Shown here piece by piece: positions 8,101-52,242 of a stretch of DNA of 64,000 bases. Source of the stretch: Rhizobium lusitanum (GTDB taxonomy: Bacteria > Pseudomonadota > Alphaproteobacteria > Rhizobiales > Rhizobiaceae). The translations under genes and the position numbers were made by a program. Each line of letters begins with the position of its first letter. The stretch's first letter is position 1. Under the pieces are notes generated by a model that saw nothing but the letters and a program-made list of their open reading frames with translations, searched no databases and was not told the DNA's origin. The stretch spans positions 124,001 to 188,000 of the forward strand of contig NZ_CP050305.1 in NCBI RefSeq assembly GCF_014189535.1. Reading direction: 5' to 3'.

Positions 8101-8402
8101 ATGACAATAATCAACGCCCGACTTTCGTCGATCATACCGCGCAGATCCTTTTCCAACACTATCTGCCTCCGGATTTCCTGCTCGTCGGTTTTAAACTCAC
8201 GGAAGCACAGGTCCGGACCGATCCATGGTGGTTCATCATCGCGGAGCATCCGACCGCGCCGCGTTTCGGTTTTGCCACGGGAGCACCCCAGGGCTCGGCG
8301 GCGGCAATTGCTGCCGCGCGCCTGAAAGATCCGGTGCGCGCCGCCTTCCGGGGTAAGTTCCTGCTCAACCAGATTCAATCGGCCGGGGGTCCCAATGCCT
8401 GA
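5137..8402 (+). pseudogene. giant-operon protein B, one gene split by a frameshift at a G5 run
   Basis: Two frames, 5137-6210 and 6207-8402, are best read as one gene of about 1088 residues. At 6067-6071 there is a run of five G. With a sixth G the protein reads RPEGGLSPLAPGEEGTVQ and continues in the second frame without a stop. The apparent TTG start at 6207 then has no significance. The N-terminal third has a conserved-looking block near residues 118-136 (FDRPELPWLFSPFAPTGD). The C-terminal third has a Trp/Arg-rich block ending in RGEIIRRYPH near residue 969, then a PDFLLVGFKL segment. No signal peptide, membrane segment or known catalytic motif is visible. The start overlaps the stop of gene A (ATGA), and the end overlaps gene C by eight bases. 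Function unknown. Whether the frameshift is real or a homopolymer error is undecided. Confidence 0.6.
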
Positions 8403-13025: not shown

Positions 13026-14767
13026 GCAACACGGTGAATGTCATTGCTTCCCGCCCGCTAAGTGGGATCCTCAAGGCAATAGCCTTGGAGCCGCCGGCAT
13101 GGAGCCGCCTGGAACCGCAATCCGTCACCGGCGATCCCACCCCCGGCATCGAGGCACGCATCCATGATCCCTTATGGCTGATCGCTCGCCAATGGCAGTT
13201 CGGCGAGTTCCAGGGCGAGGATGCCGGCACACCTATAGCCATGCATGTCGCCATGACCAGCCGGCGGTTCAGTGCTTGGAAACCCGGTGACCAGAGCTCT
13301 GAAACTCCGGTGCGGCCGCTGAGGCCAGACCACTCGATCGAGCCCGAAGTGGAGCGCGAACCTCCACCCAGCCACGGCATCGGCTTGCGGCAACGAGCCG
13401 AGGCAGGAGCTCTACTCGTCTCGGCTTTGGCGGAGGCCGGTTTTGACGCCGGCAAGGCTTTGACGGACGCCTTTACGCTGCCCGTCGATGAAGAGCCGCC
13501 GACCGACGTGCCCGCGGCTCTCTGGCAGGCCGATCCAATGTGGCGCACGATCGCCCGTGCGAGCCCGGATGGGGAGGCGGTCGCTGCGTCCATCGAAGCG
13601 GCCGGCGCCGGCAATCCGGCCTGGCTGATCGGTGCTTCCGCTGATGCCGTTGCGGCATCACGGGAGTGGCTTGTCTGGTATCGCTCCCAGGTCTCCCGAC
13701 CGGCCGGCAGCAACGATGCCTGGCTGCGCGAGCGCCTCGAGTACCAATTCGCCGTCCGAACTGGCAATCCGGAGAACCAAGCGGTCTTCCGTGCACCTGC
13801 CCATGATGGCGGTCCAGTCGACTGGTACAGCTTCGATTATCACCACGGCGAGACCCTGACGGTGGAGGGGGAAGCCGCCGAGGCCGCAGCCGAAGTCGCC
13901 AAGACGATGACAATGCTGGCAACGCCTCTACGCTATGCCGGCATGCCTGCGGACCGTCTCTGGCAATTCGAGGATGGCCTCGTCAACTTCGGCCACATAG
14001 AGGCCCAGCCGCACGACCTCGCGCGCCTGTGCTTTGTCGAATTCTCAACGATCTACGGCAATGATTGGTACACGATCCCGGTCGACCTGCCGGCCGGCAG
14101 CTTCACCCAATTCTCCGAGGTCGCCTTCACCACTACGTTCGGCGAGCGCTTCGTGGTTAACCAAGCGGACGACCGAGGGCGCAGTGGCCATTTCCGCATG
14201 TTCGAGCTTAGTGTCTCGGGCGACCCCGTCATACTGCCCGGCCTGCTGATACCGCCGGGTGGCAGGATTTCGCAGGAAGGAAAGGCGCTGGAAGACGTAG
14301 TGTTCTTGCGCGACGAAAGCGCCAACATGGCCTGGGCAGTTGAAAAGACGGTGCAAGGCAAGAGCGGCGATCCACGCAGTCGCAGCAGCGAGCCGCAGTT
14401 CGTGCCACCCAACGCGCCGCTCGCCGCTGGGGCGGACCTGCGGTATATCCTGGAGACTACGGTGCCGGCCAACTGGATACCGCTCGTGCCGGTACCAACG
14501 TCGCCGGCGCAGGGTGGTTTCGAACTGCGCAAGGGCACAATGACCGACAAGGACGAATCGCTCGGCGAAATACTCGATCCAACGCCCTTCACGCTCAAGG
14601 AGGAAGAGGTTCCGCGTGAGGGCGTGCGAGTGCGCCGCGTTCCCGCCATTTGCAGGACCGCTGACGGCCAGATGGTGCGCTGGATCGCCCGCCGGGTCAG
14701 CGTTGCCCACGGCGAGGGAGCAAGCCGTCTTGCTTTCGACGGCACAACCAATCAGCCCGGAGGATAA
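13022..14767 (+). CDS. giant-operon protein D
   Basis: The last gene of the four-gene operon encodes 581 residues and overlaps the stop of gene C as ATGA. The strongest visible block is DPLWLIARQWQFGEFQGED near residues 51-69, preceded by a WSRLEPQ segment. These tryptophan-rich blocks look conserved, and I recall similar ones in proteins of unknown function that travel with DUF6603-type genes; this is memory, not a search. There is no signal peptide or membrane segment. The C-terminal 100 residues contain a basic, arginine-rich stretch (GVRVRRVPAICR). Its start codon and phase agree with the end of gene C in the restored frame, so the operon is co-linear throughout. Function unknown. Confidence 0.6.
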   Translation: MSNTVNVIASRPLSGILKAIALEPPAWSRLEPQSVTGDPTPGIEARIHDPLWLIARQWQFGEFQGEDAGTPIAMHVAMTSRRFSAWKPGDQSSETPVRPLRPDHSIEPEVEREPPPSHGIGLRQRAEAGALLVSALAEAGFDAGKALTDAFTLPVDEEPPTDVPAALWQADPMWRTIARASPDGEAVAASIEAAGAGNPAWLIGASADAVAASREWLVWYRSQVSRPAGSNDAWLRERLEYQFAVRTGNPENQAVFRAPAHDGGPVDWYSFDYHHGETLTVEGEAAEAAAEVAKTMTMLATPLRYAGMPADRLWQFEDGLVNFGHIEAQPHDLARLCFVEFSTIYGNDWYTIPVDLPAGSFTQFSEVAFTTTFGERFVVNQADDRGRSGHFRMFELSVSGDPVILPGLLIPPGGRISQEGKALEDVVFLRDESANMAWAVEKTVQGKSGDPRSRSSEPQFVPPNAPLAAGADLRYILETTVPANWIPLVPVPTSPAQGGFELRKGTMTDKDESLGEILDPTPFTLKEEEVPREGVRVRRVPAICRTADGQMVRWIARRVSVAHGEGASRLAFDGTTNQPGG

Positions 14768-16848: not shown

Positions 16849-17652
16849 ATGAGCACATCCAGTACGAAGAATGCGGTTATCGTTGGTTTTATAGCGAGCC
16901 TTGGCTGCATTTTGGCTTCGGTCGTGGACAGCACCTCATTAAATGCCGCACCGAACCCGCCCGGCGGCTATCAGCAATCATGCCGTGACATTGCAGCGGA
17001 TGAGACGTCAGTCGTCGCACAGTGCATGAACTTCAATGGCGATTGGGCATCCAAAACGACGTTAAACTACACCGGCTGTGGCGGTGAAATCTACAATTAC
17101 GATGGTCAGCTCAAATGCGCGGGCTTACCGCCCCCGCAGGGCACGTATCAGTCGACTTGCAATGAACTCAAAACAGACTCGGATCAAGTTCTTCACGCGA
17201 GATGCGAAACGATCAACGGCGGTTGGATTACCACAAGTTTGGTGATCGTCGGGTGCCAGGGGAATATTGCCAACATCGACGGAACCCTTCATTGCAACCG
17301 CAGCCCGGTTCCCATTCCATCCGGCTCATATTTGGAGACCTGCTGGGATGTTGCGGCTGACGGCATTCACCTGAGTGCCACCTGCCGAACACTTAGCGGC
17401 GATAGCGCGGGTACATCTGCAATTGCTGACTACCCCGCTTGCGCGCGCTCCAATCAGGATATCTTGAACCGCGATGGTGTTTTGACCTGCGCGTCTGTTA
17501 CCCCTGCCAACTCACCTTGTTCTTGGGGCAATCCAAATCGCGATCCACATTGCGGAGTATCTGTTAATCCGAACCCAGCACCTCCTTGGCCTCCGGGTTC
17601 GTCCACCTCGTACCCATTCTCGATGAAACGGAACGTTCCGTTGAACCCATAG
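16849..17652 (+). CDS. exported protein with three tandem CVNH (cyanovirin-N homology) repeats
   Basis: The start at ATG 16849 is chosen because GGAGG lies at 16836-16840 and the N-terminus then becomes a signal-peptide-like segment (residues 8-33). Three homologous repeats follow at residues 39-90, 97-149 and 158-214. Each has the pattern G-Y-x3-C, then a second Cys about 15 residues on, a Gly-Trp pair in the first two, and a closing Asp-Gly-x-Leu-x-Cys. This matches the CVNH fold, known for binding high-mannose glycans; canonical CVNH has two sequence repeats per domain. The four cysteines per repeat fit extracellular disulfides. The last 50 residues are Pro/Asn-rich. It is followed closely by an LGFP-repeat gene on the same strand. 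The third repeat lacks the tryptophan. A carbohydrate-binding role outside the cell is likely; the ligand is unknown. Confidence 0.75.
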   Translation: MSTSSTKNAVIVGFIASLGCILASVVDSTSLNAAPNPPGGYQQSCRDIAADETSVVAQCMNFNGDWASKTTLNYTGCGGEIYNYDGQLKCAGLPPPQGTYQSTCNELKTDSDQVLHARCETINGGWITTSLVIVGCQGNIANIDGTLHCNRSPVPIPSGSYLETCWDVAADGIHLSATCRTLSGDSAGTSAIADYPACARSNQDILNRDGVLTCASVTPANSPCSWGNPNRDPHCGVSVNPNPAPPWPPGSSTSYPFSMKRNVPLNP

Positions 17653-17681
17653 GCAACGCCTATCAAACCTGTGAGGCTATC

Positions 17682-19031
17682 ATGACAAACCCCAATGAAA
17701 CTACCAATCTCGGATGGCACCACAGTGCAGCTTCATCCCTGCAAACTCAGAGAACGAGCTACATTCATGCTGTGTCTCAGCTATTTGAGCCCGGCGATCC
17801 CCACTTGAACAGTCAAGCAGCCGTTCACCGCGTCGGCGATACGGTGTCAGTAGCGGCCTCAGGAGCACTGGTTTCGCTTATTTCTCTCCAACAAGCGGTG
17901 GATGCCATTACTCAGAAAGCGGCAAGTCTCGGGCTATCCAATGCCAATGTAGAAAGCGCTGTGGAGGGTGTTACGGGTGGCTATATCGGTCGATTTTCGG
18001 ATATGGATATCTACTATTCCGTCGAAACCGGAGCCCATGAAGTTCATGGCGATATCCGAGCAAAATACAATGTGCTTGGTGGTCCCGGCGGTCTTCTCGG
18101 GTTGCCCGTAACCGACGAAGAACCAACACCGGACCTAATCGGACGCTTCAATCACTTTACCGGCGGATCCATCTATTGGACGCAACATACAGGCCCCATG
18201 TCAGTTCGTGGCCAGATCAAAGATCTTTGGGCAACGATGGGTTTTGAAAAAAGCGAACTTGGTTACCCCGTCACGGATCAATATCGAATGAAGACTGCGT
18301 CACCAAATGACCCAGTCATTGAATGGTGCCAGTTTGAAAACGGAATGATTGCATCCGATCGCACCGAAGCCCGCGTCGCGCCCTTTGCTACAATCGACCC
18401 TAATACTCTTCAATCGGTCGTATGGAAGATGATTGATACCAGATTTCATGATTCACCAGATAATGTAGGCCTTCATCCCGATACGAGCATTCAAGGCGTC
18501 AGCGAATGGCACTACGGCTTTTGGGTTTCTGTCCCGCGGGCAATTGGCTTTCGTCTACACGGCTTTCGCGATAACGGCGGCGCTCCCGATACTGACTACT
18601 TCATAAATCTTTGGCTGCGATTTGAACTTGCATGGAGCACCAACAACTTTGCTGAACCTATCGACAAATCAGTTGTAGCCTCGCTGGATTGGTTGCGAGT
18701 GACCTCTGATGGTTTCGATGTGTCCGGCGGCGCTGTGATCAACGGTGTAACACAGGGCTTGCACGATGCATTCTTCTCTGCCCCAGGAAGTGGTGATCAT
18801 CCTGAAGTGCTTGCCGGGTCACTGTATGTCGGCAACTTGCCGACGCACGCAGAGCCAAGGCGCGGCAATATAGATTTGATTGGAATCGGAGTATCGAAGG
18901 CAGGCGAGTTTCAGGTGTTTGTGAATCCATTGCGCCCGACTGACGCGCCAGGCATATCTGATTATGGAATACTGCGCAGCATTGGGGCTCAAACAGAGCT
19001 GAATCTTCTAGTCAGTAAACTTCTCGCTTAA
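17682..19031 (+). CDS. LGFP-repeat protein
   Basis: ATG 17682 is preferred because GAGG stands just upstream; the longer frame from 17586 would overlap the preceding CVNH gene. The 449-residue product has two clear LGFP-type repeats, with cores LGLPVTDE at residues 139-146 and LGYPVTDQ at 193-200. A preceding GRFSDMDIYYS and a GRFNHFTGGSIYW segment complete each unit. LGFP repeats in other bacteria occur on secreted or cell-wall-linked hydrolases and are thought to anchor to the envelope. Residues 230-449 form another, Trp-rich beta region of unknown type. No classical signal peptide is visible from this start, which is odd given the exported neighbours. It probably forms an operon with the CVNH gene (30-base gap). 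Confidence 0.7.
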   Translation: MTNPNETTNLGWHHSAASSLQTQRTSYIHAVSQLFEPGDPHLNSQAAVHRVGDTVSVAASGALVSLISLQQAVDAITQKAASLGLSNANVESAVEGVTGGYIGRFSDMDIYYSVETGAHEVHGDIRAKYNVLGGPGGLLGLPVTDEEPTPDLIGRFNHFTGGSIYWTQHTGPMSVRGQIKDLWATMGFEKSELGYPVTDQYRMKTASPNDPVIEWCQFENGMIASDRTEARVAPFATIDPNTLQSVVWKMIDTRFHDSPDNVGLHPDTSIQGVSEWHYGFWVSVPRAIGFRLHGFRDNGGAPDTDYFINLWLRFELAWSTNNFAEPIDKSVVASLDWLRVTSDGFDVSGGAVINGVTQGLHDAFFSAPGSGDHPEVLAGSLYVGNLPTHAEPRRGNIDLIGIGVSKAGEFQVFVNPLRPTDAPGISDYGILRSIGAQTELNLLVSKLLA

Positions 19032-24621: not shown

Positions 24622-24784
24622 GGCACTGTTTTATCGTCTATTATAACTGTCGGCAACAATATTGCCGGAACCAATACCACAATGGAGTCAATTGACGAGC
24701 GCAAACTAAGCGCGCACATATACATCGCTCGCAGTAATGCATGCCACAGATACGAATTTAACACCGTTAGCGATAGGATTTACT

Positions 24785-25777
24785 ATGCCTAGTGCTATTT
24801 CGAGAAGAGCATTCATGGCTTCGACTATTTCCGCGGCCATTGTTGGATCAAATGTCTCTGCTTCTGCAGATGATAATGGCATCGACCTCAGCGATGATCT
24901 TTCACGAGGGCAGATATTCAAAGATTTTGTTGTCTTGCCGTGGCTAGCTGAGAACGGAGGGGAAAATCAAACACTATCAATTCCCGCGGTATTTCAGTTC
25001 CCGCAAGATGTAACTTATGACTGCACCCTCGACGCACAGAAGGTCTGTAGGACGGACACATCGAAGCCTCGCACAAAGCCGATGCTGTTTGGAGTGGACA
25101 TAAGCCACTACACTGCCCCCTCTTTTTCATTTAGCGAACTGAGGGACAAGAAGGTTCGGTTCGTGCAAATGAAAGCCAGCCAAGGGCTTAGGTACCGAGA
25201 TGCTAACTTCGCTGCATTCTGGAAGCGAGCCGCCCAGTTCCAGGGAGACCAGGCAGTTTTCCGGGGGGCTTATCACTTTCTGACGGCAGACGGGGATGGA
25301 AAGCAGCAGGCTGAATGGTTTCTTAGCGAACTTGAACGCGCCGGGGGTACGGTAAATGGTGATATGGCGCCAGGTGTCGATCTCGAATGGGATGTCTACA
25401 AGAGCACCGGCAAGGCAGATCATTGGGAGGGAAAAGGCGCCAATTTTATCCTCGATACGGTCCATGCGTGTATGGAGCGATTGACAAAAGCCACGGGGAA
25501 AAACCCAATCTTGTACACTGGGAAATCCTGGTTCTCCGCAAAAACGGTTCCAATTGATCGCTTCAAGGAGTTGGAAAAATATCCTCTTTGGGTTTTCGAT
25601 TACAACCCGCAAAGGAAGCTTGACGAGAAACCGCTTCTGCCGGACAATTCCTCGAAGGCAGCCATCTGGCAATTTTCGGATTCAGCACGTGCCTTGGGAG
25701 CGTACGACGGAACACTCGATTCGTCGGTATTTTATGGCAGTGAGGGCGACTTCAAAAATGCCTTCGGAATCTCGTAA
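24785..25777 (+). CDS. Tat-exported GH25 muramidase
   Basis: ATG 24785 (AGGA at 24775-24778) gives a 330-residue protein with a twin-arginine signal (SRRAFMA at residues 6-12) ending near ASA. The glycoside hydrolase family 25 fold is clear. FGVDISHY carries Asp105, and a later VDLEWD carries Asp199 and Glu201, the catalytic DxE that cleaves MurNAc-GlcNAc bonds of peptidoglycan. An ending WQFSD strand is also typical. Residues 30-100 are an extra N-terminal region of unknown role. The stop TAA overlaps the start of the caspase gene (TAATG at 25775-25779), so translation is coupled. A Tat signal on a muramidase implies it folds before export. Likely target: the organism's own or a competitor's cell wall. 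Confidence 0.85.
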   Translation: MPSAISRRAFMASTISAAIVGSNVSASADDNGIDLSDDLSRGQIFKDFVVLPWLAENGGENQTLSIPAVFQFPQDVTYDCTLDAQKVCRTDTSKPRTKPMLFGVDISHYTAPSFSFSELRDKKVRFVQMKASQGLRYRDANFAAFWKRAAQFQGDQAVFRGAYHFLTADGDGKQQAEWFLSELERAGGTVNGDMAPGVDLEWDVYKSTGKADHWEGKGANFILDTVHACMERLTKATGKNPILYTGKSWFSAKTVPIDRFKELEKYPLWVFDYNPQRKLDEKPLLPDNSSKAAIWQFSDSARALGAYDGTLDSSVFYGSEGDFKNAFGIS

Positions 25778-27695
25778 TGAGGGCCAAGGGACACATCATC
25801 GCGTTGATAGCTGCCATTGCCCTTTTTTCCTGCTGCAAGGCGGCATGCGCGGATGACTGCTCTAATATTGCGGTGGGTGTGGCAGACCCAAGTTGGTGCC
25901 AATATTTGGGTCGCTTTCCCTTCAGTTCCCAGAACGACCCAAATCGGCACGTGGACAATCGCGTGAAGGATGCGATGGGGTTGAACGATACACAAGACTC
26001 CAAAATTAGGAGCTACGCTTTCGTTATTTCGGTATGGGATTATAATTTCTCCGATGCGATTACTTCGGAGCTAAAAGGGGTCGAAAACGAGCAATCATCG
26101 TTGCTTAGTTTTGTTAAATCTCAAGGCTTTGACGAAGCATTGGTCCTAGAGAATGGTGAGGCGAATGCCCAGACAATTCGAAAAATTTTCACCGAGTATT
26201 ACCTGCCTAAATTCATATCTGCGTCCCAAAATGGCCAACAGATCCGATTTATGTTTATATTTGATGGCCACGGTTGGCAGCCTCCATCAAGCGAAGCAAC
26301 TGGCGCTTTGGCGCTAAGCAAGCTAGAAGATGAAGGCGACTTGAATTATGACCACCGCTTCTCGTTAGCAGAACTACGCGGTCTTCTTGCAGACCTTTCT
26401 CCCTATACCCGATCGATGGTCGCACTGTTAGGATCATGCTACTCGGGTAGTGTGTTACGGGGACCGGGACTAGCCGACGACTACACCCCAGGACCATCGG
26501 CGTGGATCGCAGCGGCCGCGCCTAATCGAACGCAAGCATGGATCCTCCCCAAGGAAAGTGGCACCCTTTTTTTCAAGATTTGATCTCAACAGTCGACCAC
26601 TGGTCAGCAGCAACTAGTCAGCTACCAGCAGATGATACCGCCTCGGCCGTTGTTAGTTTCGCACAATTCACACCCAAACTTCGCGAAATCATCGACAGAA
26701 TTAATGAGGAGCATCAATCCGCTCGCAATCCAGAGAAACCTGACGAGCCTTATCCACCATTCGTAATGGATACAGTCTCTTACGAAGGGCAGAGGAAAGC
26801 CGCTTTTCGCTTCATAGTTCCGGCCAAAGTCACTGCTGCAAATGGCCTTGATATCGGGAATGTTACCTTGACTGGTAGCGCGGTAGTAGGCCGACCGAAC
26901 GTCACTGTCGTCCACACGCCAGAGTATTATTCGGTACGGGGCATAGATTTATCCCATGCTTCGGGCGATGTCGATTTTCAGAAACTCAAATCCTCAGGAG
27001 TAAAGTTTGCATATCTTAAAGCTACGCAAGGAACAAAATTTAAGGATGCCCGCTTCGGCGGATATTTGAAAGATGCAACAGCAAGTGGGCTACCAGCAGG
27101 CGCTTATCACTTTTTTGACTATTGCGAGGGACCGGATCAACAATTTCAAGCAATTATAGAAAACGTACCAAAAAGTATTGATCTTCCTATTGCGGTCGAT
27201 TTGGAATGGAAGGTCATAGCGGCAGGAGGCTTTGTGGAGCCAACAGACTGTAATAGCAACGAGGTGATCCGGGAAAATTTTCGTAGCCTGCTTCAGAAGC
27301 TCACGATATACTACGGAAAGATGCCGGTCATTACTACGGCCTCGGCTTTTGTAAAAGCCTATCCAATCATAGATGATAGTTTCGGAATTTATCCACTGTG
27401 GATAATGGACTACAGCAAGAGTAGAGTAGCACAAGGAACACCCTCTCTGCCCATTCATACTCCTTGGACGTTTTGGCAATACACGGACCATGGTACGTTT
27501 GATGGTATTCCCGGAAAGACATTCGATGTGAGCGTCTTCTTTGGTTCCGACCAAGAATTTCGTGACTTTGCGTCGGGAACGCAAAATGTTGCCCTCCAAG
27601 CAGCTCTACCGTCGTTCTTGCCAGCCGCGAACGCGGCAGTAAAAGCCATCACAGAGCCAGCGGCTGCCGCCATTCACGAGATATTTCACTTTTAG
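25777..27695 (+). pseudogene. caspase-like peptidase fused to a GH25 muramidase, frameshifted at a T7 run
   Basis: The frames 25777-26583 and 26538-27695 fit one gene of about 639 residues. At 26567-26573 there are seven T; an eighth would give SGTLFFQDLISTVDHW and join the frames. Residues 1-25 are a signal peptide. Residues 75-300 are a C14 caspase-like domain with the catalytic dyad His165 (FIFDGHGW) and Cys221 (LLGSCYSGS). After a linker with a beta domain, residues 385-600 form a GH25 domain with GIDLSH (Asp391) and VDLEW (Asp475, Glu477). The last 40 residues are Ala-rich. The start overlaps the stop of the preceding GH25 gene. A run of seven T could also permit slippage that makes both a caspase-only and a fused product. 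Real frameshift, slippage or sequencing error cannot be told apart here. Confidence 0.65.
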
Positions 27696-27861: not shown

Positions 27862-28022
27862 GACGGCCATCGATATTCCCCGGTGAGTGTTATGTGTTCC
27901 CATCCAAGCGGTGAGACGTGTGGCAGCAAGCTTGGGTCGATCAGTTCGCCGGCGGCGATTTGCTCGGCCACGATCTCTCCGAGTTTCCAGGTGTTCCAAT
28001 AGATTATTATGGCGGTCAGCAG
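27852..28022 (-). pseudogene. tnpA: Tn3-family transposase C-terminal fragment
   Basis: Minus-strand translation gives the typical Tn3 transposase ending: NLLTAIIIYWNTWKLGEIV, then HVSPLGWEHITLTGEYRW and a stop at 27852-27854. Only about the last 55 residues remain; sequence above 28022 belongs to other elements. With the adjacent terminal repeat it is one end of a lost transposon. No resolvase or partner end is present. Confidence 0.65.
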
Positions 28023-28029
28023 ATTAAGG

Positions 28030-28083
28030 TGTCAATCGGCGCGGAATGTTGACCCCTTATCGGCGTCCAATCTTCACCCCCTT
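28030..28083. repeat. partial insertion-sequence end with internal direct repeat
   Basis: TGTCAATCGGCGCGGAATGT followed by TGACCCC, then a second, similar unit (CCAATCTTCACCCCC), resembles repeated terminal sequence of IS21-type elements in rhizobia. It separates the Tn3 and IS3 fragments. No istA or istB gene is present. Confidence 0.35.
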
Positions 28084-28370
28084 ATAGACGATCAGCGCTT
28101 GGCCTACACGGCAAAGGAGACCAGGCTCTTTGCTCAGCCTGTCAATCTGACACCATGCTTCACGCCGGTTGCCAGCCCGCAGTCCAACGGCGTGTCTGAA
28201 GCCTTCGTCAAAACCCTGAAGCGGCACTACATCCGCTATCACCGCTTCCGGACGCCGACACCGCGCTCCGGCAGATCGATGGATGGATCGAGGACTGCAA
28301 CGAGATCCATCCACATTCCGCGCTCAAGATGGCTTCCCCTCGGCCGCTCATCAGGGCTAAATCAAACTAG
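28084..28370 (+). pseudogene. IS3-family orfB integrase-core fragment
   Basis: Translation shows YTAKETRLFAQ, TPCFTPVASPQSNGVSEAFV and KTLKRHYIR, the region around the third catalytic acid (Glu in SNGVSEAF) of an IS3-type DDE transposase. One base added near 28236 restores the expected continuation LPDADTALRQIDGW and NEIHPHSALKM to the stop at 28368-28370. The N-terminal two thirds, with the first Asp, is missing, so it cannot be active. Confidence 0.6.
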
Positions 28371-28435
28371 CCGACTGTCCGGTGAAACGGGGAGCACTCC
28401 ACCAGGGTAGCAACGGTCGACTGGAGCATGCAAGC

Positions 28436-28599
28436 ATGAGCAAGACGAGAGAAAAAGGCATCATCGCATATGGAACCGAGGAGGATCGGCGCAATCTGGC
28501 AATCCTGGCCGACACTATCGAGTGTCCGGAATCGAGCTTCTAATTAAGATGCTCAGAGAGCGCTTCGAGCAACTTTTCGGCGAAAACGCGTTAAAATAA
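28436..28599 (+). pseudogene. small ribbon-helix-helix-like protein, frameshifted
   Basis: The frame from ATG 28436 begins MSKTREKGIIAYGTEEDRRN and stops at 28541. One extra T near 28541 would continue it as SSFLIKMLRERFEQLFGEN to a stop at 28597-28599, giving about 54 residues. The size and pattern resemble small CopG/Arc-type DNA-binding proteins. Tentative; no partner gene is recognisable. Confidence 0.3.
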
Positions 28600-28703
28600 T
28601 TACAACGCAGGCTGCCAATCCAATTAAGATCATTGTATGTAGAGGGCTCCCGTTCAGAGTCCTAATCTCAAGAACTACATCTTGAGTGTCATTGGAGAAT
28701 TAT

Positions 28704-30104
28704 ATGTTGAAATATCCATTAGCATTTTTCTTCATGACGCTCTCTTTAACTTTGTCATTCTGTGTAGAGACGGCGTTTGCTCAAAATGCAGCCGATGAAA
28801 ATGATCCGAAATGGGAATGCTATGCTCCTGCTCCAGGACATCCTACTGATGCTGAACGAGTGGCATTTGTAGACAAGGCGTCCAAAATCGCTGTTGATCT
28901 GGAAAAAAGCTATGGCGTTCCAGCACCGGCGATCACTGCGATGGCTGCGGTCGAATCTGGCTACGGTTGGACAAGGATAGCTGTGTTCGCCAACAACTTT
29001 TTCGGCTGGAAGGGTGAAGAGGGCGCGGGCAGCGCATATCATCTTAAATGCCAGCCGTTAGACACTGATCCCAACGCGTTTTATGTGAAGTTCAATTCTC
29101 TTGAAGCCTCAATGTCCGCCGTTGCCGAACGGTTAGCGAAGGGCAGAAATTACCAGAAAGACACCGCTCGCTATCAGGCGGATCTCAAGGAAGGGATCGA
29201 TCCGGCTCTCGCAGCCAGACTTTGGATTGACGCAATAGCGCCACGTTACAACGGCAAGCCTTGGCTGTATCGCAGCACGCTTAAACGGGTCATGAATGAT
29301 CCAATTTCGCCTGCGGATTTCATCAATCCTAAGCTTAACTTGTATCGGCTCGCACCCCCGCCGGTGAAGGGCGAGAATCGTTATGCACATATAGTCGACA
29401 GTATCGCGTATAAAACAGTAATTAAACTTGCCAAACGGGATCTTGCTCCTGGCGCGCGCACTATGGACAATTGCATTGATGGTGGTGGAAGCATTCAGAA
29501 AGACTACCCCGAGTATGAAGGCTATCCGGTCAAGCGGTGTATTTACCAGATCACAAGCCCCAACGTGCTGAAAGGCCTTGTATACACCCTCCATCCTACG
29601 GCAGAACAGGTTGCAGCATGGACAGCTTTTGCATGTATTCGGGCCGATGCTTCAGATCAGTCCGCGTGTGCCACGCGACTTTTTCGAACCGGGAGCTCTG
29701 AAACTGAAGGGCTTTATGAAAGTAACAACGCTCAGTTTCCTGTTTCGGGGAACGTGATTGAGATTGGTAGCGCGGGGGGCTGCACCAAAGCGACAGTGAA
29801 CAACAACATTTTTTTCAGGCATGGTGTTACAGTTAAGCTGAAAGCGCTGCCCTCGGTCTGTTCAACTCAAGCGTTTTCTATTTCTGATCAGGAGCAGTAC
29901 TCAAAATCGGCGGTGGAAAGATACAGATTCGTCGCACGGGTATCCGCTTTAAAGCTACAAGAATATAGCGATTTCACCGGCAAGTCTCCCACGGGTGATG
30001 AATGGGCACGGATCAACCAATTATCTTATCTCACTGGCCTGGACGACGGTGTCAACGCATTGCTCAACATTCAAGCAGAGCGGCTTTTCGGGAGTAAGCG
30101 TTGA
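28704..30104 (+). CDS. exported N-acetylglucosaminidase-domain protein
   Basis: ATG 28704 with GGAG at 28694-28697 gives 466 residues; the longer frame from 28686 has no ribosome site. Residues 1-27 are a signal peptide ending AFA. Residues 45-200 form a glucosaminidase (mannosyl-glycoprotein endo-beta-N-acetylglucosaminidase type) domain: AAVESGYGW with the likely catalytic Glu84, then FANNFFGWKG and a YxDxARY block. These enzymes cut GlcNAc-MurNAc bonds of peptidoglycan. Residues 210-466 are a second, Cys-containing region that I do not recognise. It lies downstream of two GH25 domains, so this part of the island encodes three cell-wall hydrolase domains. A hairpin follows at 30109-30139. 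Confidence 0.75.
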   Translation: MLKYPLAFFFMTLSLTLSFCVETAFAQNAADENDPKWECYAPAPGHPTDAERVAFVDKASKIAVDLEKSYGVPAPAITAMAAVESGYGWTRIAVFANNFFGWKGEEGAGSAYHLKCQPLDTDPNAFYVKFNSLEASMSAVAERLAKGRNYQKDTARYQADLKEGIDPALAARLWIDAIAPRYNGKPWLYRSTLKRVMNDPISPADFINPKLNLYRLAPPPVKGENRYAHIVDSIAYKTVIKLAKRDLAPGARTMDNCIDGGGSIQKDYPEYEGYPVKRCIYQITSPNVLKGLVYTLHPTAEQVAAWTAFACIRADASDQSACATRLFRTGSSETEGLYESNNAQFPVSGNVIEIGSAGGCTKATVNNNIFFRHGVTVKLKALPSVCSTQAFSISDQEQYSKSAVERYRFVARVSALKLQEYSDFTGKSPTGDEWARINQLSYLTGLDDGVNALLNIQAERLFGSKR

Positions 30105-30108
30105 CGTT

Positions 30109-30139
30109 CTGGTAGCTGGCCACGCAGGCTAGCTACCAG
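30109..30139 (+). terminator. hairpin after glucosaminidase gene
   Basis: CTGGTAGCT at 30109-30117 pairs perfectly with AGCTACCAG at 30131-30139 across a 13-base loop, four bases after the stop of the glucosaminidase gene. There is no U-run, so it is a weak or Rho-assisted terminator, or a 3'-end stabiliser. Confidence 0.4.
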
Positions 30140-30238
30140 TTCCATAGTAGAACCTTTATCTGTGATGGCAGTGTAGCGGCTATTTAGTAATGCGACAGTC
30201 GAGTGACCATGATGCTGACCGAATCGCCCGATTTAGAC

Positions 30239-30597
30239 TTATAGAGAAAGCAGTCCATTCAGATACGTCTCGCGATCAATATTCTCCGCTTGGCTTGACG
30301 CAAGATCGACCAAAGCCAAGACAACCGAGCGGGCTAGCCGGCGTGCGCGACGTCGGTCTTCACTCGATATTGGCGCCATCGATCGGCCATGGACATAAGC
30401 GCTTCTTAGATCGAAGAGCGATTCATATTCGCCCCGGATTTGGGATCGGCTAGCAGGTTTTGCACTCTCGTCCGCATCACCTGCGTAACTGACATCGCTT
30501 TCCGGGGATCGGTCTTCAGCTTTTTCCCATAGTCGGAGTGCAGGCTGTTGATTTCCACTGAGAAGTGACCCGGCGGCACAGGATATTTCCATCGAGA
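30239..30597 (-). pseudogene. C-terminal fragment, HEPN-like
   Basis: On the minus strand this frame ends with FDLRSAYVHGRSMAPI and SEDRRRARRLARSVVLALVD. The Arg-Ser-x3-His pattern and surrounding helices resemble HEPN domains (R-x4-6-H), as in ApeA-type proteins, many of which are defence RNases. The frame is cut at about 30598 by the end of the ISL3 element, so the N-terminus is lost. A competing overlapping frame at 30406-30630 exists; this one is preferred for its HEPN-like end. A SIR2-like N-terminal fragment lies on the same strand beyond the inserted elements. Confidence 0.4.
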
Positions 30598-32225
30598 ATT
30601 GGCTCTGACGCGCTTTTTGCTGATGTTCATCCCCTACGACGCGCCGATCAAACGCGCCTGCAGCAGATCGAGTTTTGCTCTCCCGTACATCTGGCGTTTG
30701 ATGAGCTTCAGTCGCGTAATCTGACCCTCCGTCTGTCCGTTCGACCAAGGTGAGATGATTGCGTTTCTTACGGCATTGAGGTCTTTTTCAACCCCACCAG
30801 CAAACGATCCGACCAGGCTGTTTTTAGCTGCTTCAAGCCATTCATCGAGCTTTCGTGTCGTCTTGGAGCGGATCATGGATTGGAAGTCGCCAATGGTCGT
30901 GCGGGCAACGATTAGTTCCGGAACGTTCACTTCGATTGCCGCCACCAGGATAGCCTCGGATTTTGCCAAGTCATCGCGTGCGGTTGTCATCAACCGGGCG
31001 ATGGCCCGCGCTGACGGTGTTCGCGCAAGCCCGCTCTGGTTGGCCTTCTCCGCAAGACGTCGACGCTGAGCCCATTGCGAGACGACCCCGCTTTGCCCCG
31101 GAAAGCCCTTCGCTTTCATCTCGCGCCAGAGTAGGCGTTTCGTGCGCCCTCCTCCCAGCGGCTGTTGAGCCACGGTAACCAGCTATCCAGTGAGCTGGGC
31201 CGTGTTCGAAACATATCGAGGCGTTGGCCCCTCAAAACGTCGCGGACAATCTTCCGGCTATGACCGGTTTGCCGAACGATCTGTCGAATTGAGGTTCCTT
31301 TCTTCGACAGCTCCCGGATCGCCTCGTTTGTTTCCTGACGGCGCAGATATCCCTCGTACTGCAGTTTCTCAGCGTAGGTCAAAAGCTTGGGATCAATGAC
31401 ATTGCTGCCGACCGCCTGCCTGATCTGGCGCATCGACTTGCCGACAGCATCGAGGAACGCTCGGCTGGAATTCTCCATCAGATGCCAGCGGTCGGCAACC
31501 TGCTCAGCATCAGGTAAGGCCTTTGCGATAGCCTCACCATAGCCGCCACCCCGATCGCGAGCGACGATGGAGATCGACTGATGCTCGGCAAGCCACGCTC
31601 GAGACGTATCCAATGCTCGATCCGGTAACAGGGTGACGGGCTTCCGCCGCTCCAGATCGCAGACGATCGTCCCATAGGTTTGGCCCCGCCTGAAGGCAAA
31701 ATCATCAATGCCTATGACGGTGAGTTCATTGTTTTGATCGGCAATACGGCGGCGAACCACCCGCAACAGTGTGTCGTTGCTCACTGGCACCATCAGACGA
31801 TTGGCAAAGGCCGCCGGTCTGCCGCCGAGTGCCAAGCCAAGGTGGTGGACGATGGTCTCCAACCGCTGGGTGCGCCGACCGTAACGTGCCAACACGCCAT
31901 TATCGAACTGTTCGCAAAAGATGCGCCGTCCGCATAGCACGGCATCGCACCAGAACCGACGCGCCACGATTGCCAGCTCGACTCGCCGACCGCTGATGGG
32001 CAGGTCAGCGGGCCGGCGCAGATATCGGCTTTGAACTCGTCGGCTCTGTCGCCCGCAGGCTGGGCAAATTCCTGATGGAGCGCGCGATCGCAGCCGAACT
32101 TGAACGCACTCTGCAACAACCGCCACTTCATCGACTGCAAATCCGGACGGCGCGAGGCTCGCGCGTTGAAATCGTCGTTGCATAGCTGATCCTCCGATGA
32201 ATCAGCAAAAGCATCATCCGTAACA
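30598..32225 (-). mobile_element. ISL3-family insertion sequence
   Basis: The ends are estimated from partly matching inverted sequences: GCGCTTTTTGCTGATGTTCA near 30610-30629 and, inverted, GATGATGCTTTTGCTGATTC near 32195-32217. One transposase gene (frameshifted) fills the element. The boundaries are approximate to about 15 bases, and no target duplication was identified. Confidence 0.5.
30634..32183 (-). pseudogene. ISL3-family transposase, frameshifted near 31143
   Basis: The two minus-strand frames 31116-32183 and 30634-31173 are parts of one ISL3 transposase. The N-terminal zinc-ribbon (GICPACGRQS) is followed by the catalytic core: VIGIDDFAFRRGQTYG with the first Asp, then VARDRGGGYGEAIA and VADRWHLMEN. 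The C-terminal part has SPWSNGQTEGQITRLKLIKR with the catalytic Glu. Adding one G near 31143 gives RWEEGRTKRLLWREMKAKGF and restores about 517 residues. As written the element should be inactive. Confidence 0.75.
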
Positions 32226-32319
32226 GCAGCAAATGATGGTGTGGAACGGCCCTTCGCACCGGCATCGAGGATGCCTACTGTGGTGACGCCAATCGCCACA
32301 AGATAGAAGGAACCGTTCC

Positions 32320-33081
32320 ATGGAGAAGATTACCACAATCGGACTGGATCTGGCTAAGTCAGTCTTTCAGGTTCATGCCATTACGGAAGATGGACATGTC
32401 GCTGTCCGACGTGCTTTGCGGCGATCACAATTGTTGGAGTTCTTCCGCAACACCGAACCATGTCTTGTCGGAATGGAAGCATGCGGGAGTGCCCACTACT
32501 GGGCCAACGCGATTGGTGAATTCGGTCATACGGTGCGATTGATGCCTCCGGCCTATGTGAAGCCCTACGTCAAGCGAAACAAGACCGACGCAGCTGATGC
32601 TGAGGCAATCTGCGAGGCGGTCACGCGCCCTACAATGCGCTTTGTTCCCGTCAAGTCACCAGAGGAGCAAGCTGCCGGGATAGTTTTGAAGACCCGAGAG
32701 TTACTGGTGCGTCAGCGAAGCCAGACGGCCAATGCCATGCGGGGCCACATGGCCGAGCTCGGGATCATCGCTGCAACTGGAATGACAAGCATTGCCAAGC
32801 TCATCACCATTTTGCGTGACGATGGAGATGATCGTCTGCCGAACTCGGCTCGGGCCGCGCTGTCAGAGATGGCCGATCAGATCGAAAGGCTCACAGAAAG
32901 GGTTGAGGTGCTCGACGGCAAGATTATCGCAGCAGTGAAAGCTGATGATACCGCTCGTCGGCTGACGACGATCCCCGGCGTCGGCCCTATTATTGCAGCA
33001 ACTGTTCGCGCCGCCGTTCAAGATCCGGCAGCCTTCCGAACCGGGCGGGATCTGGCCGCCTGGATCGGCATCACGCCGAAA
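32320..33081 (+). pseudogene. IS110-family transposase, 3'-truncated
   Basis: The N-terminal DEDD core (TIGLDLAKSVFQVHA, VGMEACGSAHYW, KTDAADAEAI) and the central helical part, ending GVGPIIAATVRAAV and AAWIGITPK, are intact. Then the reading frame runs into a 194-bp inverted-repeat element at 33082 and ends at 33174 in unrelated sequence. The expected C-terminal serine region is missing, so it is probably inactive. The 130 bases upstream (32190-32319) are the usual non-coding leader of IS110 elements. Confidence 0.75.
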
Positions 33082-33275
33082 GGGGGCAGAACAAGATTAG
33101 TGCGAAATCGTACGTTAATCAAATTCGTCCATATTTTCCGTAGTTTGTCGCCTGTACTGAATATGAAGTTTTAGGGTGAAATGCTTTTAGGGCCCAGTTT
33201 TGGGAACGAATATCGATCTCGAGCATCACTTCCTCGGCTAAACGTACGATTTCGCACTAATCTTGTTCTGACCCC
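33082..33275. mobile_element. 194-bp MITE-like element with 35-bp inverted repeats
   Basis: The left end 33082-33116 (GGGGGCAGAACAAGATTAGT, continuing GCGAAATCGTACGTT) is the inverse of 33241-33275 with one mismatch (34 of 35). The 124 bases between contain no gene. This is the form of a non-autonomous miniature element or a solo internally deleted IS. It interrupts the IS110 transposase on its left and a SIR2-like fragment on its right, so flanking DNA was also rearranged. Confidence 0.7.
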
Positions 33276-48486: not shown

Positions 48487-49701
48487 ATGGCGAAGGCTCG
48501 TAGTCAACTAACAGAGACACTCGCACCAAAGCGCCCGATAACCGAAGTTATCGCGAGTGATGGCGCGGCGTTATCCGAGGAACTGCAAGCCATGCGGCAG
48601 GTGCTTTTCCCGCCAATTGCGCAGAAGGTATTGCGTTCATTTTCGTCGGTCGAATCGGCAAAACTGATCGGTATCGCTGATGCGTATCTTCGGCAGCTTT
48701 CGCTTAATGGCAAGGGACCGCAGCCGACAATTAACTCCGGTGGTCGCCGCTCATACACGCTCGACCAGATCAATGAGATTCGAGCTGTTCTTGATGAAAA
48801 TTCGAAGGGCAAGCGTTACGTTCCCCGTCGTCGGGGTGACGAGCACTGCCAAGTCATGGCTGTTGTGAATTTTAAGGGCGGTAGTGGTAAGACGACGACC
48901 GCAGCACATCTGGCACAGTATCTCGCGTTACAAGGATATAGGGTTCTTGCGGTTGATTTGGATCCGCAAGCGTCTCTCACTGCTCTGCATGGCTATCAAC
49001 CGGAATATGATATCGGCGCTAACGAGACAATGTACGCAGCCGTGCGATATGACGAGACCCGGAGACCTCTGAGCGAAGTTATTCGCAAGAGTTACATTTC
49101 CGGTCTTGACCTTGTTCCTGGCAATCTCGAGCTCATGGAATACGAGCACGACACACCGCGCGCGCTTGCCGAACGTTCTGCCGAGCCCTTCTTTGGCCGC
49201 GTAGCATCAGCTCTCGGCACTGTTTCCGATGATTACGACGTGATGGTTCTGGACTGCCCACCGCAGCTCGGTTTCTTGACGCTAGGGGCTCTCTGCGCTT
49301 CGACAGGATTGCTCATTACCGCGCATCCCCAGATGCTTGACGTGATGTCGATGTGTCAATTCCTTCTGATGGCATCGGACCTGCTGAGCGTTGTTCAGGA
49401 ATCCGGGGGCGATCTCGATTATGATTTCATTCGGTATGTGGTGACGCGCTACGAGCCTTCCGACGGTCCACAAGCGCAGATGGTGGGGTTCATGCGGTCG
49501 CTGTTCCGAGAGCGTGTCCTAACCAACACGATGCTGAAATCGACCGCCATCTCGGGCGCTGGCTTATCAAAGCAGACGCTTTACGAGGTCGGTCGTGAGG
49601 ACTTTTTGAAAAACACCTACGAAAGAGCGATTGAATCGCTCAACGCCGTCAATGGTGAGATTGAAACCTTGATCAAGCAGGCGTGGGGTAGGGCCGCATG
49701 A
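48487..49701 (+). CDS. repA: RepA, ParA-type partition ATPase
   Basis: 404 residues. The Walker A motif FKGGSGKTTT occupies residues 129-138, followed by VLAVDLDPQASLTALHG and VMVLDCPPQLGFLTLGALCA (Walker A' and B regions). The N-terminal 110 residues are the RepA-specific DNA-binding part that represses the repABC promoter. It works with RepB and parS to segregate the replicon. A GGGAGAATT site precedes the ATG after some ten bases. The stop overlaps repB's start (ATGA). An imperfect palindrome upstream (GTTAA at 48390-48394, TTAAC at 48402-48406) may be its operator. Confidence 0.95.
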   Translation: MAKARSQLTETLAPKRPITEVIASDGAALSEELQAMRQVLFPPIAQKVLRSFSSVESAKLIGIADAYLRQLSLNGKGPQPTINSGGRRSYTLDQINEIRAVLDENSKGKRYVPRRRGDEHCQVMAVVNFKGGSGKTTTAAHLAQYLALQGYRVLAVDLDPQASLTALHGYQPEYDIGANETMYAAVRYDETRRPLSEVIRKSYISGLDLVPGNLELMEYEHDTPRALAERSAEPFFGRVASALGTVSDDYDVMVLDCPPQLGFLTLGALCASTGLLITAHPQMLDVMSMCQFLLMASDLLSVVQESGGDLDYDFIRYVVTRYEPSDGPQAQMVGFMRSLFRERVLTNTMLKSTAISGAGLSKQTLYEVGREDFLKNTYERAIESLNAVNGEIETLIKQAWGRAA

Positions 49702-50729
49702 GCAGAAAAGAGGTGCTAAAGGCAATGCTAACTCGTCGGGAGCAGGAGTTGCCACCTGGCAACTTGCAGCCTGAAACCGATAGCCCAGAGCCTGCGATAA
49801 CGCCGGAGCGGAAGTTGCAACACATACGCTCTGGTGCTGTCGGTGCTATGGGGCGCTCACTCGGAAGTATTGCAAGCGCGGCCGACCAAGCGAGAGCCCT
49901 GATCGCGGCCGGTTCAGCCGTGATTGAAATCTCTCCTGACAAAATTGAGGGTTCATTTGTTGCTGATCGGCTGTTGGACGATGGCGAAGACTATCAAAAG
50001 CTCCGCAATGCCATTAGCGAATCTGGACAAAAGAGTCCGATCCTCGTGCGACCGCATCCGACGAAACCGGACAGGTATCAGATCGCTTTCGGTCATCGAA
50101 GGGTTCGTGTTCTCGCAGCGTTGGAGCGCCCGGTTAAAGCTGTCGTTCAAAATCTTACAGATGAAGAGCTAGTTGTTATCCAGGGTCAGGAAAACTCAGC
50201 TCGATCGGATCTTAGCTACATCGAGCGCGGTCTCTTTGCTTTGGCGTTAGAAGAGCGAGGCTTTGACCGTCGCGTCATTATGTCATCGCTCGCGATGGAG
50301 AAGACGCAGCTTTCAAAGTTGATGAGTGTTGCGCACTCTTTGCCTCGTGCTCTGATAGAGGCAATCGGTCCGGCACCAAAGGCAGGGCGACCACGTTGGG
50401 CTGCGCTGACTGACCGTCTTAACCAGACTAAGAAGAGATCGGAGCTGAATGCGCTGCTGGATAGCCGAGAATTCAAGGTCGCCGACACGAATGAGCGCTT
50501 CAGCCAGGTGATGGAGATTCTATCCACGCAACGCGCTGCTAAACGGCCTGAGAGCATCAAAACCCGCGAAGGTACGAGGCTCGCCTCAATCGAGCGATCT
50601 GGCTCGAAGATCAATCTTGTCTTTGACGATCGAGCTTCACCTGAATTTGCAGATTATGTGGCGTCTCAACTTGAGACTCTTCATCGATCATATCTTGGGA
50701 CCCGCAAAGCTGAAAAAGCCGAGCGATGA
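49698..50729 (+). CDS. repB: RepB, ParB-type partition protein
   Basis: 343 residues overlapping the repA stop. The ParB/Spo0J N-terminal domain shows as LRNAISESGQKSPILVRPHP and IAFGHRRVRVLAAL near residue 131, then LSYIERGLFALALEERGF and a helix-turn-helix region (LAMEKTQLSKLMSVAHSLP) for parS binding. A parS-like site is encoded within its own 5' end (49748-49763). After the stop comes the intergenic counter-transcribed RNA and then repC. Confidence 0.95.
   Translation: MSRKEVLKAMLTRREQELPPGNLQPETDSPEPAITPERKLQHIRSGAVGAMGRSLGSIASAADQARALIAAGSAVIEISPDKIEGSFVADRLLDDGEDYQKLRNAISESGQKSPILVRPHPTKPDRYQIAFGHRRVRVLAALERPVKAVVQNLTDEELVVIQGQENSARSDLSYIERGLFALALEERGFDRRVIMSSLAMEKTQLSKLMSVAHSLPRALIEAIGPAPKAGRPRWAALTDRLNQTKKRSELNALLDSREFKVADTNERFSQVMEILSTQRAAKRPESIKTREGTRLASIERSGSKINLVFDDRASPEFADYVASQLETLHRSYLGTRKAEKAER
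49748..49763. promoter_or_regulatory. parS: parS-like centromere site 2, inside repB
   Basis: GTTGCCACCTGGCAAC, the exact reverse complement of the site at 48323-48338, located about 17 codons into repB. A centromere copy inside the coding sequence of the protein that binds it allows autoregulation by occlusion. Confidence 0.65.
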
Positions 50730-50781
50730 TCAAATGAGTTATCAGAGATAATAGTAACGACGAGAAGGACTACACCGCAAA

Positions 50782-50835
50782 AGAAAAAAGCCCCCGAACG
50801 TCACCGTAACGGAAGCTTTCCTCTAAGTCTGAACA
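50782..50835 (-). ncRNA. counter-transcribed RNA (incompatibility RNA) of repABC
   Basis: Between repB and repC, on the minus strand, a strong promoter (-35 at 50865-50870, -10 at 50842-50847) predicts a transcript start near 50835. The transcript then runs to a G-rich hairpin followed by six or more T (minus strand of 50782-50800: GGGGGCTTTTTT). The predicted length of about 54 nt fits known repABC antisense RNAs, which limit RepC translation. Confidence 0.7.
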
Positions 50836-50841
50836 CCTTTG

Positions 50842-50870
50842 AGAATCGCATTTCCGGGAATCGCTGTCAA
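50842..50870 (-). promoter_or_regulatory. promoter of the antisense RNA
   Basis: On the minus strand TTGACA (50865-50870), a 17-base spacer and GATTCT (50842-50847): a near-consensus housekeeping promoter, as usual for the strong constitutive antisense RNA of repABC loci. Confidence 0.75.
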
Positions 50871-50928
50871 GAGTCTTTGGCGCCGTTCGGCGAGTGGATT
50901 TCTGTTGCCTCAACGTAGGTGAGAGAAA

Positions 50929-52242
50929 ATGGAAACTGGATATGTGACGACGCCCTTTGGGCGGCGGCCGATGACGCTTGGCATGCTCGCAAGTCAAAAG
51001 CTGACGCGCGAAATCGACCCTGCCAAGTCGGTCGACAAATGGAAAATTTATCGCGCGCTTTGTGAAGCCAAGCCACTGCTCGGCGTCACCGATCGTGCGC
51101 TCGCCGTGCTGAACGCTCTCTTGAGCTTCTACCCGAAGAACGACCTTTGCGAAGATAACGGCCTGGTCGTTTTCCCCTCGAATGCCCAGCTGTCATTGCG
51201 GTCGCATGGCATGGCCGAGCAAACGATCCGACGCCACCTCGCCGCCCTGGTCGAGGCTGGGCTGCTCATCCGCAAGGACAGCCCGAACGGTAAACGTTAC
51301 GCCCGCCGGGGTAGGGAAGGGGAGGTCAGTGACGCTTTTGGCTTTTCATTGGCTCCATTGCTTTCTCGCGCCGAAGAGTTCGAACATCTAGCTGCCACAG
51401 TGGTGGCCGAGCGCCTCCATATCCAGCAGCTGCGTGAGCGCATCAGCCTCTGCCGTCGCGACATAGCAAAACTGATCGAGACGGCAGTTGCTGAGCAGCT
51501 CGGCGGCGATTGGCAGGGCATATATCTGGGTTTCAGAAGCCTGATCGAGGACCTCCCACGCTTCCCAACGACAGCAGCATTGGAGAATCTGCTCGAGGAA
51601 CTGGTCATTTTGCGTGATGACATCGTCATCCAATTGGAAATGCAGCTGAAAACACAAAAACAAAGCGGCAATCCCTATCAAAATGAGCGTCACATACAGA
51701 ATTCAAACCCCGAATCTTATTCTGATCTTGAACCAAGCTTCGAAACGAAGCAGGGCGCGACAACGGTGGATAAACCTGACCTGACAACCGTACCGATGGT
51801 GGGGAAACCCGAAGTATCCGTTGACGGGCGGCAATCGGGTAGGCGGAAAGCAGCCGAGCGGGACGCTGGAGCGAATGCGGATGCCCGCGGCGATCTCAAA
51901 TCATTCCCGCTGGGTCTCGTTCTTCAAGCCTGCCCGCAGATCATCGATTACGGGCCGGGCGGTGCGATCGGCAGTTGGCGTGACCTGTTGTCGGCTGGCG
52001 TCGTCGTCCGAACCATGCTGAATGTCAGCCCATCTGCTTATCAGGATGCCTGCCTGGCCATGGGGCCGGAAAATGCCGCGACGGTGATGGCCTGCATTCT
52101 CGAGCGCGGTGGACATATCAACTCGGCCGGCGGCTATCTCCGTGATCTGACCCGGCGAACCGAGAAAGAACAGTTTGCGATTGGTCCGATGCTGATGTCG
52201 CTGGTGCGTGCAAATGCTCCTACTGGGCAGAGGACGGGTTAG
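50929..52242 (+). CDS. repC: RepC replication initiator
   Basis: 437 residues. The N-terminal winged-helix part begins TTPFGRRPMTLGMLASQ and includes the typical KWKIYRALCEAKPLLGVTDR and FPSNAQLSLRSHGMAEQTIR, a recognition helix. The middle is a coiled coil around residues 150-225 (LHIQQLRERISLCRRDIAKL), and the C-terminal domain contains SWRDLLSAGVVVR and AAGGYLRDLT-like sequence. RepC starts replication at an origin located within its own coding region. Its translation is controlled by the antisense RNA upstream. The end overlaps a convergent ProQ/FinO gene by 23 bases. Confidence 0.95.
   Translation: METGYVTTPFGRRPMTLGMLASQKLTREIDPAKSVDKWKIYRALCEAKPLLGVTDRALAVLNALLSFYPKNDLCEDNGLVVFPSNAQLSLRSHGMAEQTIRRHLAALVEAGLLIRKDSPNGKRYARRGREGEVSDAFGFSLAPLLSRAEEFEHLAATVVAERLHIQQLRERISLCRRDIAKLIETAVAEQLGGDWQGIYLGFRSLIEDLPRFPTTAALENLLEELVILRDDIVIQLEMQLKTQKQSGNPYQNERHIQNSNPESYSDLEPSFETKQGATTVDKPDLTTVPMVGKPEVSVDGRQSGRRKAAERDAGANADARGDLKSFPLGLVLQACPQIIDYGPGGAIGSWRDLLSAGVVVRTMLNVSPSAYQDACLAMGPENAATVMACILERGGHINSAGGYLRDLTRRTEKEQFAIGPMLMSLVRANAPTGQRTG

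Follow-up and report, generated by a model that had tools for sequence, protein, structure and literature searches.

The window examined here, a stretch of 64,000 nucleotides from Rhizobium lusitanum (contig NZ_CP050305.1, positions 124,001 to 188,000), carries two adjacent genes on the forward strand. The first encodes a GH25 muramidase, referred to below as the partner. The second encodes a caspase-like protein joined to another GH25 domain, referred to as the fusion, and in the window copy it is split by a break in the reading frame. The features of the pair are as follows.

24785..25777, + strand: partner GH25 muramidase, 330 amino acids from the likely start; Pfam GH25 at 3.3e-26, catalytic D/D/E/D intact
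24875..24955, + strand: ordered N-terminal element of the partner with DLSRGQIF (residues 31-57)
25777..26583, + strand: caspase (C14-like) half of the fusion, 268 amino acids, with a signal-peptide-like segment, His165 and Cys221
26567-26573, + strand: run of seven T (T7) at which the window copy loses its reading frame; copies elsewhere read through
26538..27695, + strand: GH25 half of the fusion in the other frame, 385 amino acids; Pfam GH25 at 1.4e-36, domain at about 26943-27509

The longest open reading frame (ORF) of the partner begins at 24737, with 24785 as the likely start, and its signal segment contains the twin-arginine motif SRRAFM. As a first-pass annotation of the window had noted, the start of the fusion overlaps the stop of the partner, the two sharing one base (TAATG, 25775-25779). 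The His165/Cys221 dyad named in that annotation was also recovered, within the motifs FDGHG and LGSCYSG of the caspase half, which the frame break cuts short partway through the second half of the caspase fold.

Both halves had been placed in one restored reading frame. Such an unbroken frame does exist, in the database protein P0024 and in a paralogue from the same genome; the window copy itself is broken. P0024, which shares 99% identity with the corresponding stretches of both window halves, reads through the break; its four catalytic GH25 residues are D, D, E and D, the first three being the Asp391, Asp475 and Glu477 described earlier as intact. The paralogue belongs to a second, intact pair on contig C3 (85.8 kb), composed of a GH25 gene (L008:5248-6462) and a fusion gene (L008:6459-8306) whose product, P0001, has 615 amino acids in an unbroken frame. 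Because both of these copies read through, the split belongs to the window copy only, where a recent mutation or an assembly error is the likely cause; a sequencing or frame artefact was rejected as the whole story of the family.

Architecture of the fusion and its pairing with the partner

A search with P0001 returned 20 proteins, 19 of which are fusions of 586-746 amino acids (P0023, with 27% identity over 31%, was excluded), and a search with the GH25 half of the window added P0024-P0028. After two exact duplicates were dropped, the family set consisted of 33 distinct fusion sequences, including some close pairs (e.g. 95-96% identity) as well as P0026, which is truncated. The architecture is shared by the 33 sequences, and the catalytic His and Cys are retained in 33/33. 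Since the whole family has the same arrangement, the fusion is more than a chance joining, and the caspase-GH25 fusion that had been proposed is real and has a signal-like segment. The first-pass annotation had named, as grounds against its reading, homologues that always hold the two domains in separate genes; the homologues found in other genomes keep the fusion.

The window piece alone matches Pfam C14 weakly (E 0.049; 13.7 bits against a cut-off of 21.4), and the identity of the caspase rests on the family instead, through C14 matches among its members, an NCBIfam match and structural comparison. For the caspase part of P0001, the sole NCBIfam match is caspase_w_EACC1 (NF047832; 2.6e-10, 40.1 bits against a cut-off of 140 bits). 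Two metacaspase-1 structures match the fusion with the catalytic His and Cys aligned, and comparison of an AlphaFold model with the PDB gives a full caspase fold at 57-348 and a GH25 barrel at 381-598. As modelled, the N-terminal part of the fusion has the caspase-haemoglobinase fold of clan CD / C14. In the Arg/Lys-specific metacaspases and orthocaspases, an acidic S1 residue stands two positions before the Cys (Cys-2). Among the 33 sequences, Cys-2 is Gly in 26, Asn in 6 and Asp in 1. With the S1 Asp absent from 32/33, the usual cleavage at a basic residue (Arg) cannot be assumed.

The pairing was followed through 12 loci (the window, L008, L042-L048 and L055-L057; L058 and L059 duplicate two of them). 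In 12/12, the fusion is immediately preceded on the same strand by a GH25 gene, and the genes overlap or are at most 24 bases apart in all nine loci with an assigned fusion start. In L042, L055 and L056, the fusion has an open frame that extends back into the partner gene. Among the 19 fusions and the 120 partner-type sequences listed, 10 fusion proteins were tied to a partner-type hit by a same-genome proxy, an equal length of the longest contig (P0004/P0060, P0007/P0066, P0008/P0064, P0011/P0065, P0013/P0091, P0016/P0090, P0017/P0124, P0018/P0078, P0019/P0113 and P0020/P0135), the pair P0008/P0064 being locus L044 itself; the other nine had no proxy match among these 120 best partner-type sequences. 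In a set of 72,556 plasmid records, two partner-type queries taken from elsewhere match exactly the three records that bear a fusion. Over 20 pairs, 8 of them formed by the same-genome proxy, the distances of the caspase correlate with those of the partner at 0.915 and with those of its own fused GH25 at 0.813, and none of the permutations (0/5000) was as high. The earlier view of caspase and partner as a module was therefore right in spirit, the 12/12 pairing and the correlation with the partner describing one inherited unit.

All three domains are under purifying selection. For three locus pairs, dN/dS was 0.044/0.076/0.046 in the caspase part, 0.096/0.106/0.075 in the fused GH25 and 0.051/0.075/0.073 in the partner, rough values given the high dS of 0.7-1.5.

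The two GH25 domains differ in their catalytic residues. The partner has the GH25 fold with the catalytic Asp/Asp/Glu, and its D, D, E, D are kept in 12/12 loci; in an alignment of the best 120 of 186 partner-type hits at E<=1e-40, the four positions are kept in 120/120, 120/120, 120/120 and 119/120. The fused domain also has the GH25 fold, but its catalytic residues are not retained across the family: at least one of the four positions is lost in 13/33 sequences (12/33 counting the first three). Within the 12 loci such loss affects the fused GH25 in 5 and the partner in none (Fisher p 0.037, for loci that are not fully independent). All four remain in P0024, the allele of the window, and in the C3 copy. 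Across the family, the fused domain is not reliably an enzyme. The conserved activities are read here as those of the caspase and the separate partner muramidase. Owing to the losses in 13/33 sequences, it is more likely that the fused GH25 is drifting towards a part that docks on or binds the wall, or senses it.

A further feature of the partner lies between its signal segment and GH25 barrel, where the pattern [DE]x[SA]RxxxF is found in 12/12 partners. The same motif occurs in 8/31 other GH25 hits and in 0/14 true stand-alone GH25 controls; for these controls 36 loci were given, an ORF was found in 19, and 5 module loci (L003-L006 and L010) were removed. Its Arg (Arg41 in the window partner) is present in 113/113 sequences with a residue at that position, the remaining 7/120 being gapped. 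A model of the window partner built with 38 sequences (pLDDT 88.4) has a helix at 41-57 and an N-terminal block at pLDDT 80-91, and this element falls outside the region matched by GH25 structures. The SR..LF motif was first favoured as a caspase cleavage site; this was dropped in view of the other GH25s that carry it, the ordered helix start and the missing S1 acid. The motif marks the partner family, and a role in cleavage is a guess. As to export, the twin-arginine motif reported for the window partner was found there, but by eye it is absent from most of the 12 partner N-termini, and Tat export was rejected as a shared feature.

Distribution and neighbouring genes

The module is rare, sporadic and often plasmid-borne. 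The named sources of fusions are alpha- and betaproteobacteria. A pattern scan of one genome per species (84,980 species) confirmed 13 loci, a lower bound, of which 7 are fusions (Rhizobium sp. ASV8, R. freirei, Rhizobium sp. BK418, R. rhizogenes, a Nitrobacter metagenome-assembled genome (MAG), Duganella aceris and Paraburkholderia sp. C35) and 6 are caspase-only relatives, with Pfam GH25 in 0/6. The caspase profile matches 1/397 genomes of the order and 1/398 of the phylum, in these overlapping samples both times the genome of the window; P0002 matches 2/61 close relatives, and the partner-type P0038 matches G000 only among the 397 order genomes. Plasmid records add fusions of Sinorhizobium terangae, R. 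leguminosarum and R. ruizarguesonis; all three carry MPF_T and two are typed conjugative. Three further plasmid hits, H34-H36, match P0001 from residue 243-278 onward and were set aside, H34 and H36 being stand-alone GH25 lipoprotein-type genes without a caspase. The module also lies on a 1-Mb Duganella contig and on the contig of the Nitrobacter MAG. It is mostly annotated as GH25 lysozyme; in R. ruizarguesonis, both genes bear the name GH25 family lysozyme. A phage origin or phage lysis cassette was rejected, as there were 0 confirmed relatives in viral contigs (42 pattern stretches) and no match to the caspase part in 50,697 phage records.

Two further features of the window bear on the setting of the module.

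48487..52242, + strand: RepABC-type replication genes; the genes on either side of the middle one (49698-50729) gave Pfam hits to a ParA-type ATPase and RP-C
28686..30104, + strand: glucosaminidase gene, related in its C-terminal region (starting near residue 251) to a protein of about 265 amino acids found near the module in other loci

As its replication genes at 48-52 kb show, the window belongs to a secondary replicon. Transposase remains and insertion sequence (IS) genes (ISL3 and IS110 relatives) follow closely downstream of the module (28009-33174), in keeping with a reshuffled plasmid region. Elsewhere in the window there are six large same-strand genes at 2162-14767 (one DUF6603 at 2.2e-99, five without a Pfam match), a protein with LGFP repeats at 17586-19031 (Pfam 1.8e-32) and, downstream of the replication genes, a protein of 1614 amino acids that by eye is RHS-repeat-like (58136-62980).

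Neighbours were counted within the fetched DNA, the flanks of which differ between loci, with almost nothing upstream in L042. Another exported caspase, of a different type, lies within 5 kb of the module in 4/12 loci; these proteins have about 670-700 amino acids (L008:10082-12121, L042:4448-6790, L043:7449-9539 and L044:7418-9424), and the one in L008 has a D-x-C motif absent from the fusion and a weak PADLOC caspase match (6.6e-05). A lipoprotein-like family is also present in 4/12 loci, and a protein of 320 amino acids in 2/12. The family of about 265 amino acids occurs in 5/12 loci, namely the window, L008, L042 and, more weakly, L043 and L056; the window sequence is itself one of the three rows of its profile, and a single-sequence tblastn gave 8e-7. 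The glucosaminidase of the window is a possible associate of the module. In R. freirei pPRF81a (L043:1834-18570), the module has a type IV coupling-protein gene on one side and relaxase/MobC genes on the other; nine selected neighbour proteins from seven other loci revealed no common family and no transfer family. With no universal neighbour, the core consists of two genes. A CHAT-domain TPR protein adjoins the R. ruizarguesonis module (L057:12123-15428).

Five of the six caspase-only relatives have signal-like starts (L049:9373-11452, L050:9403-11323, L051:9518-12127, L053:9370-11530 and L054:9415-11122). Directly before the caspase-only gene, a small protein (152-186 amino acids, with a FQNGFFW-type end motif) is encoded in 5/6 loci, and the two are possibly a second two-gene caspase system in distant phyla. 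The caspase at L050:9794-11323 has a C-terminal Lcl_C domain (Pfam 1.9e-30).

Proposed mechanism and its alternatives

The reading favoured here, with confidence that is about even, is that the module is a protease-gated, wall-anchored, exported muramidase unit of two genes, sporadic and often carried on plasmids. Gene 1 would supply a complete GH25 muramidase, and gene 2 an exported caspase-fold cysteine protease with a C-terminal GH25 that in many members may be decaying towards a peptidoglycan-binding part. Both proteins are presumably exported. The fused GH25 would anchor the protease on the wall, and the caspase part, if proteolytically active, would upon triggering cleave an adjacent protein, which may be the partner muramidase, the fusion itself, or another envelope protein such as an inhibitor. 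After this cleavage, the muramidase would be free to cut the wall; maturation of one or both hydrolases by the peptidase, as put forward in the first-pass annotation, is likewise hypothetical.

Several observations weigh against the two-gene, protease-gated reading. At E<=0.01, Pfam C14 matches only 8/19 family members. No cleavage site was identified in the module, its specificity is not predictable from an S1 acid that 32/33 sequences lack, and the invariant Arg of the partner starts a confidently predicted helix and not a floppy propeptide, which weakens a cleavage-site role. The sequences are related, so that the mirrored distances mostly indicate descent as a unit. The 186 partner-type GH25s (E<=1e-40) outnumber the 33 fusion sequences, and some of them may act without a fused caspase. 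There is also no third gene common to all 12 loci.

A more specific version is tentative: the module may be a wall-anchored exported executioner cassette, in which the caspase senses the state of peptidoglycan via the decayed lysozyme module and switches on the partner lysozyme, a self-destruct or antagonism device outside the cytoplasmic membrane that spread on plasmids and was overlooked as GH25 lysozyme. The make-up of the gene pair hints at a cell-wall weapon, or a switch for self-destruction, under protease control. To our knowledge, targets have been established for few bacterial caspase homologues. In the present module the neighbouring gene may encode the putative target, which is co-inherited and an easily assayed enzyme, and the question of what an exported caspase cleaves is for that reason directly testable. 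Should the protease gate the muramidase, the pair would act as a proteolytic switch for lysis, self-contained and located outside the cytoplasm. Moreover, some database 'lysozymes' are caspase fusions, in some of which the lysozyme domain is degenerate.

Programmed cell death or anti-phage defence, in which the exported caspase would be switched on by infection or by damage to the envelope and would unleash the muramidase, so that the cell dies before phage or damage spreads, is rather unlikely. The coupling of a caspase to a lytic enzyme, the rare, patchy and often plasmid-borne occurrence, the second exported caspase within 5 kb in 4/12 loci with its weak PADLOC match, and the CHAT-TPR gene beside one locus are all consistent with it. 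However, no PADLOC model matches the fusion or the partner at E<=0.01, which led to the rejection of a known anti-phage defence system; no sensor domain was seen, and exported proteins are poorly placed to sense infection of the cytoplasm. Interbacterial antagonism seems equally improbable. Both proteins would be released onto the walls of neighbours, where the caspase would cut surface proteins or mature the hydrolase extracellularly, as might fit the signal segments, the nearby glucosaminidase as a further wall enzyme, and plasmid carriage. Against this, no immunity gene is common to all loci, the lipoprotein-like family reaching only 4/12, and no targeting domain was found by Pfam (secretion-system effector signatures were not searched for).

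Still less probable is a role in plasmid transfer or in the maintenance of the envelope through remodelling of the wall, where the protease would limit the amount of muramidase. The position of the R. freirei module among transfer genes (L043) and the MPF_T of the three plasmid records, two of them typed conjugative, point in this direction, but the Duganella and Nitrobacter contigs carry the module as well, and the nine neighbour proteins selected from the seven other loci include no transfer family. For the window copy only, a programmed frameshift at the T7 run giving caspase-only and full-length products is very unlikely, for although the T-run is potentially slippery and both frames are open around the break, P0024 and the paralogue need no shift, downstream RNA structure is no stronger than in shuffles (z 0.75) and has no stem, and in a caspase-only product a large part of the fold's second half would be missing.

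Comparison with known systems

No paper describing a caspase-GH25 fusion or pair appeared among the matches listed in open-licence PMC text. Metacaspase fusions to a wall amidase are already known. Like metacaspases and orthocaspases as described in the main text of a 2012 survey, the fusion has a caspase fold, a His/Cys pair and, often, an N-terminal signal-like helix; that survey counts four metacaspase sequences with Amidase_2 and eleven with a peptidoglycan-binding domain, and 'glyco_hydro' and 'lysozyme' do not occur in its main text (PMC3501461). Unlike the Amidase_2 fusions, the present module has a GH25 domain, an upstream GH25 gene and no S1 Asp in 32/33 sequences. The caspase of the fusion is related to the EACC1-associated caspases and is not a member of that group, scoring far below their cut-off.

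In contrast to the GH25 proteins of Streptomyces coelicolor (1jfx), Bacillus anthracis (2wag) and Clostridium SleM (5jip), the fusion has a caspase in front and a GH25 that is often degenerate, and the partner carries an extra ordered N-terminal element. RipA, CD27L and CTP1L can be regarded as precedents for a regulated wall hydrolase of the kind proposed for the module. We know of none among the three that encodes a caspase in the hydrolase polypeptide. The wall hydrolase RipA (PMC3585148) and the CD27L endolysin (PMC4110038) are described as controlled by proteolysis, and the CTP1L endolysin by a secondary translation product (PMC4777826).
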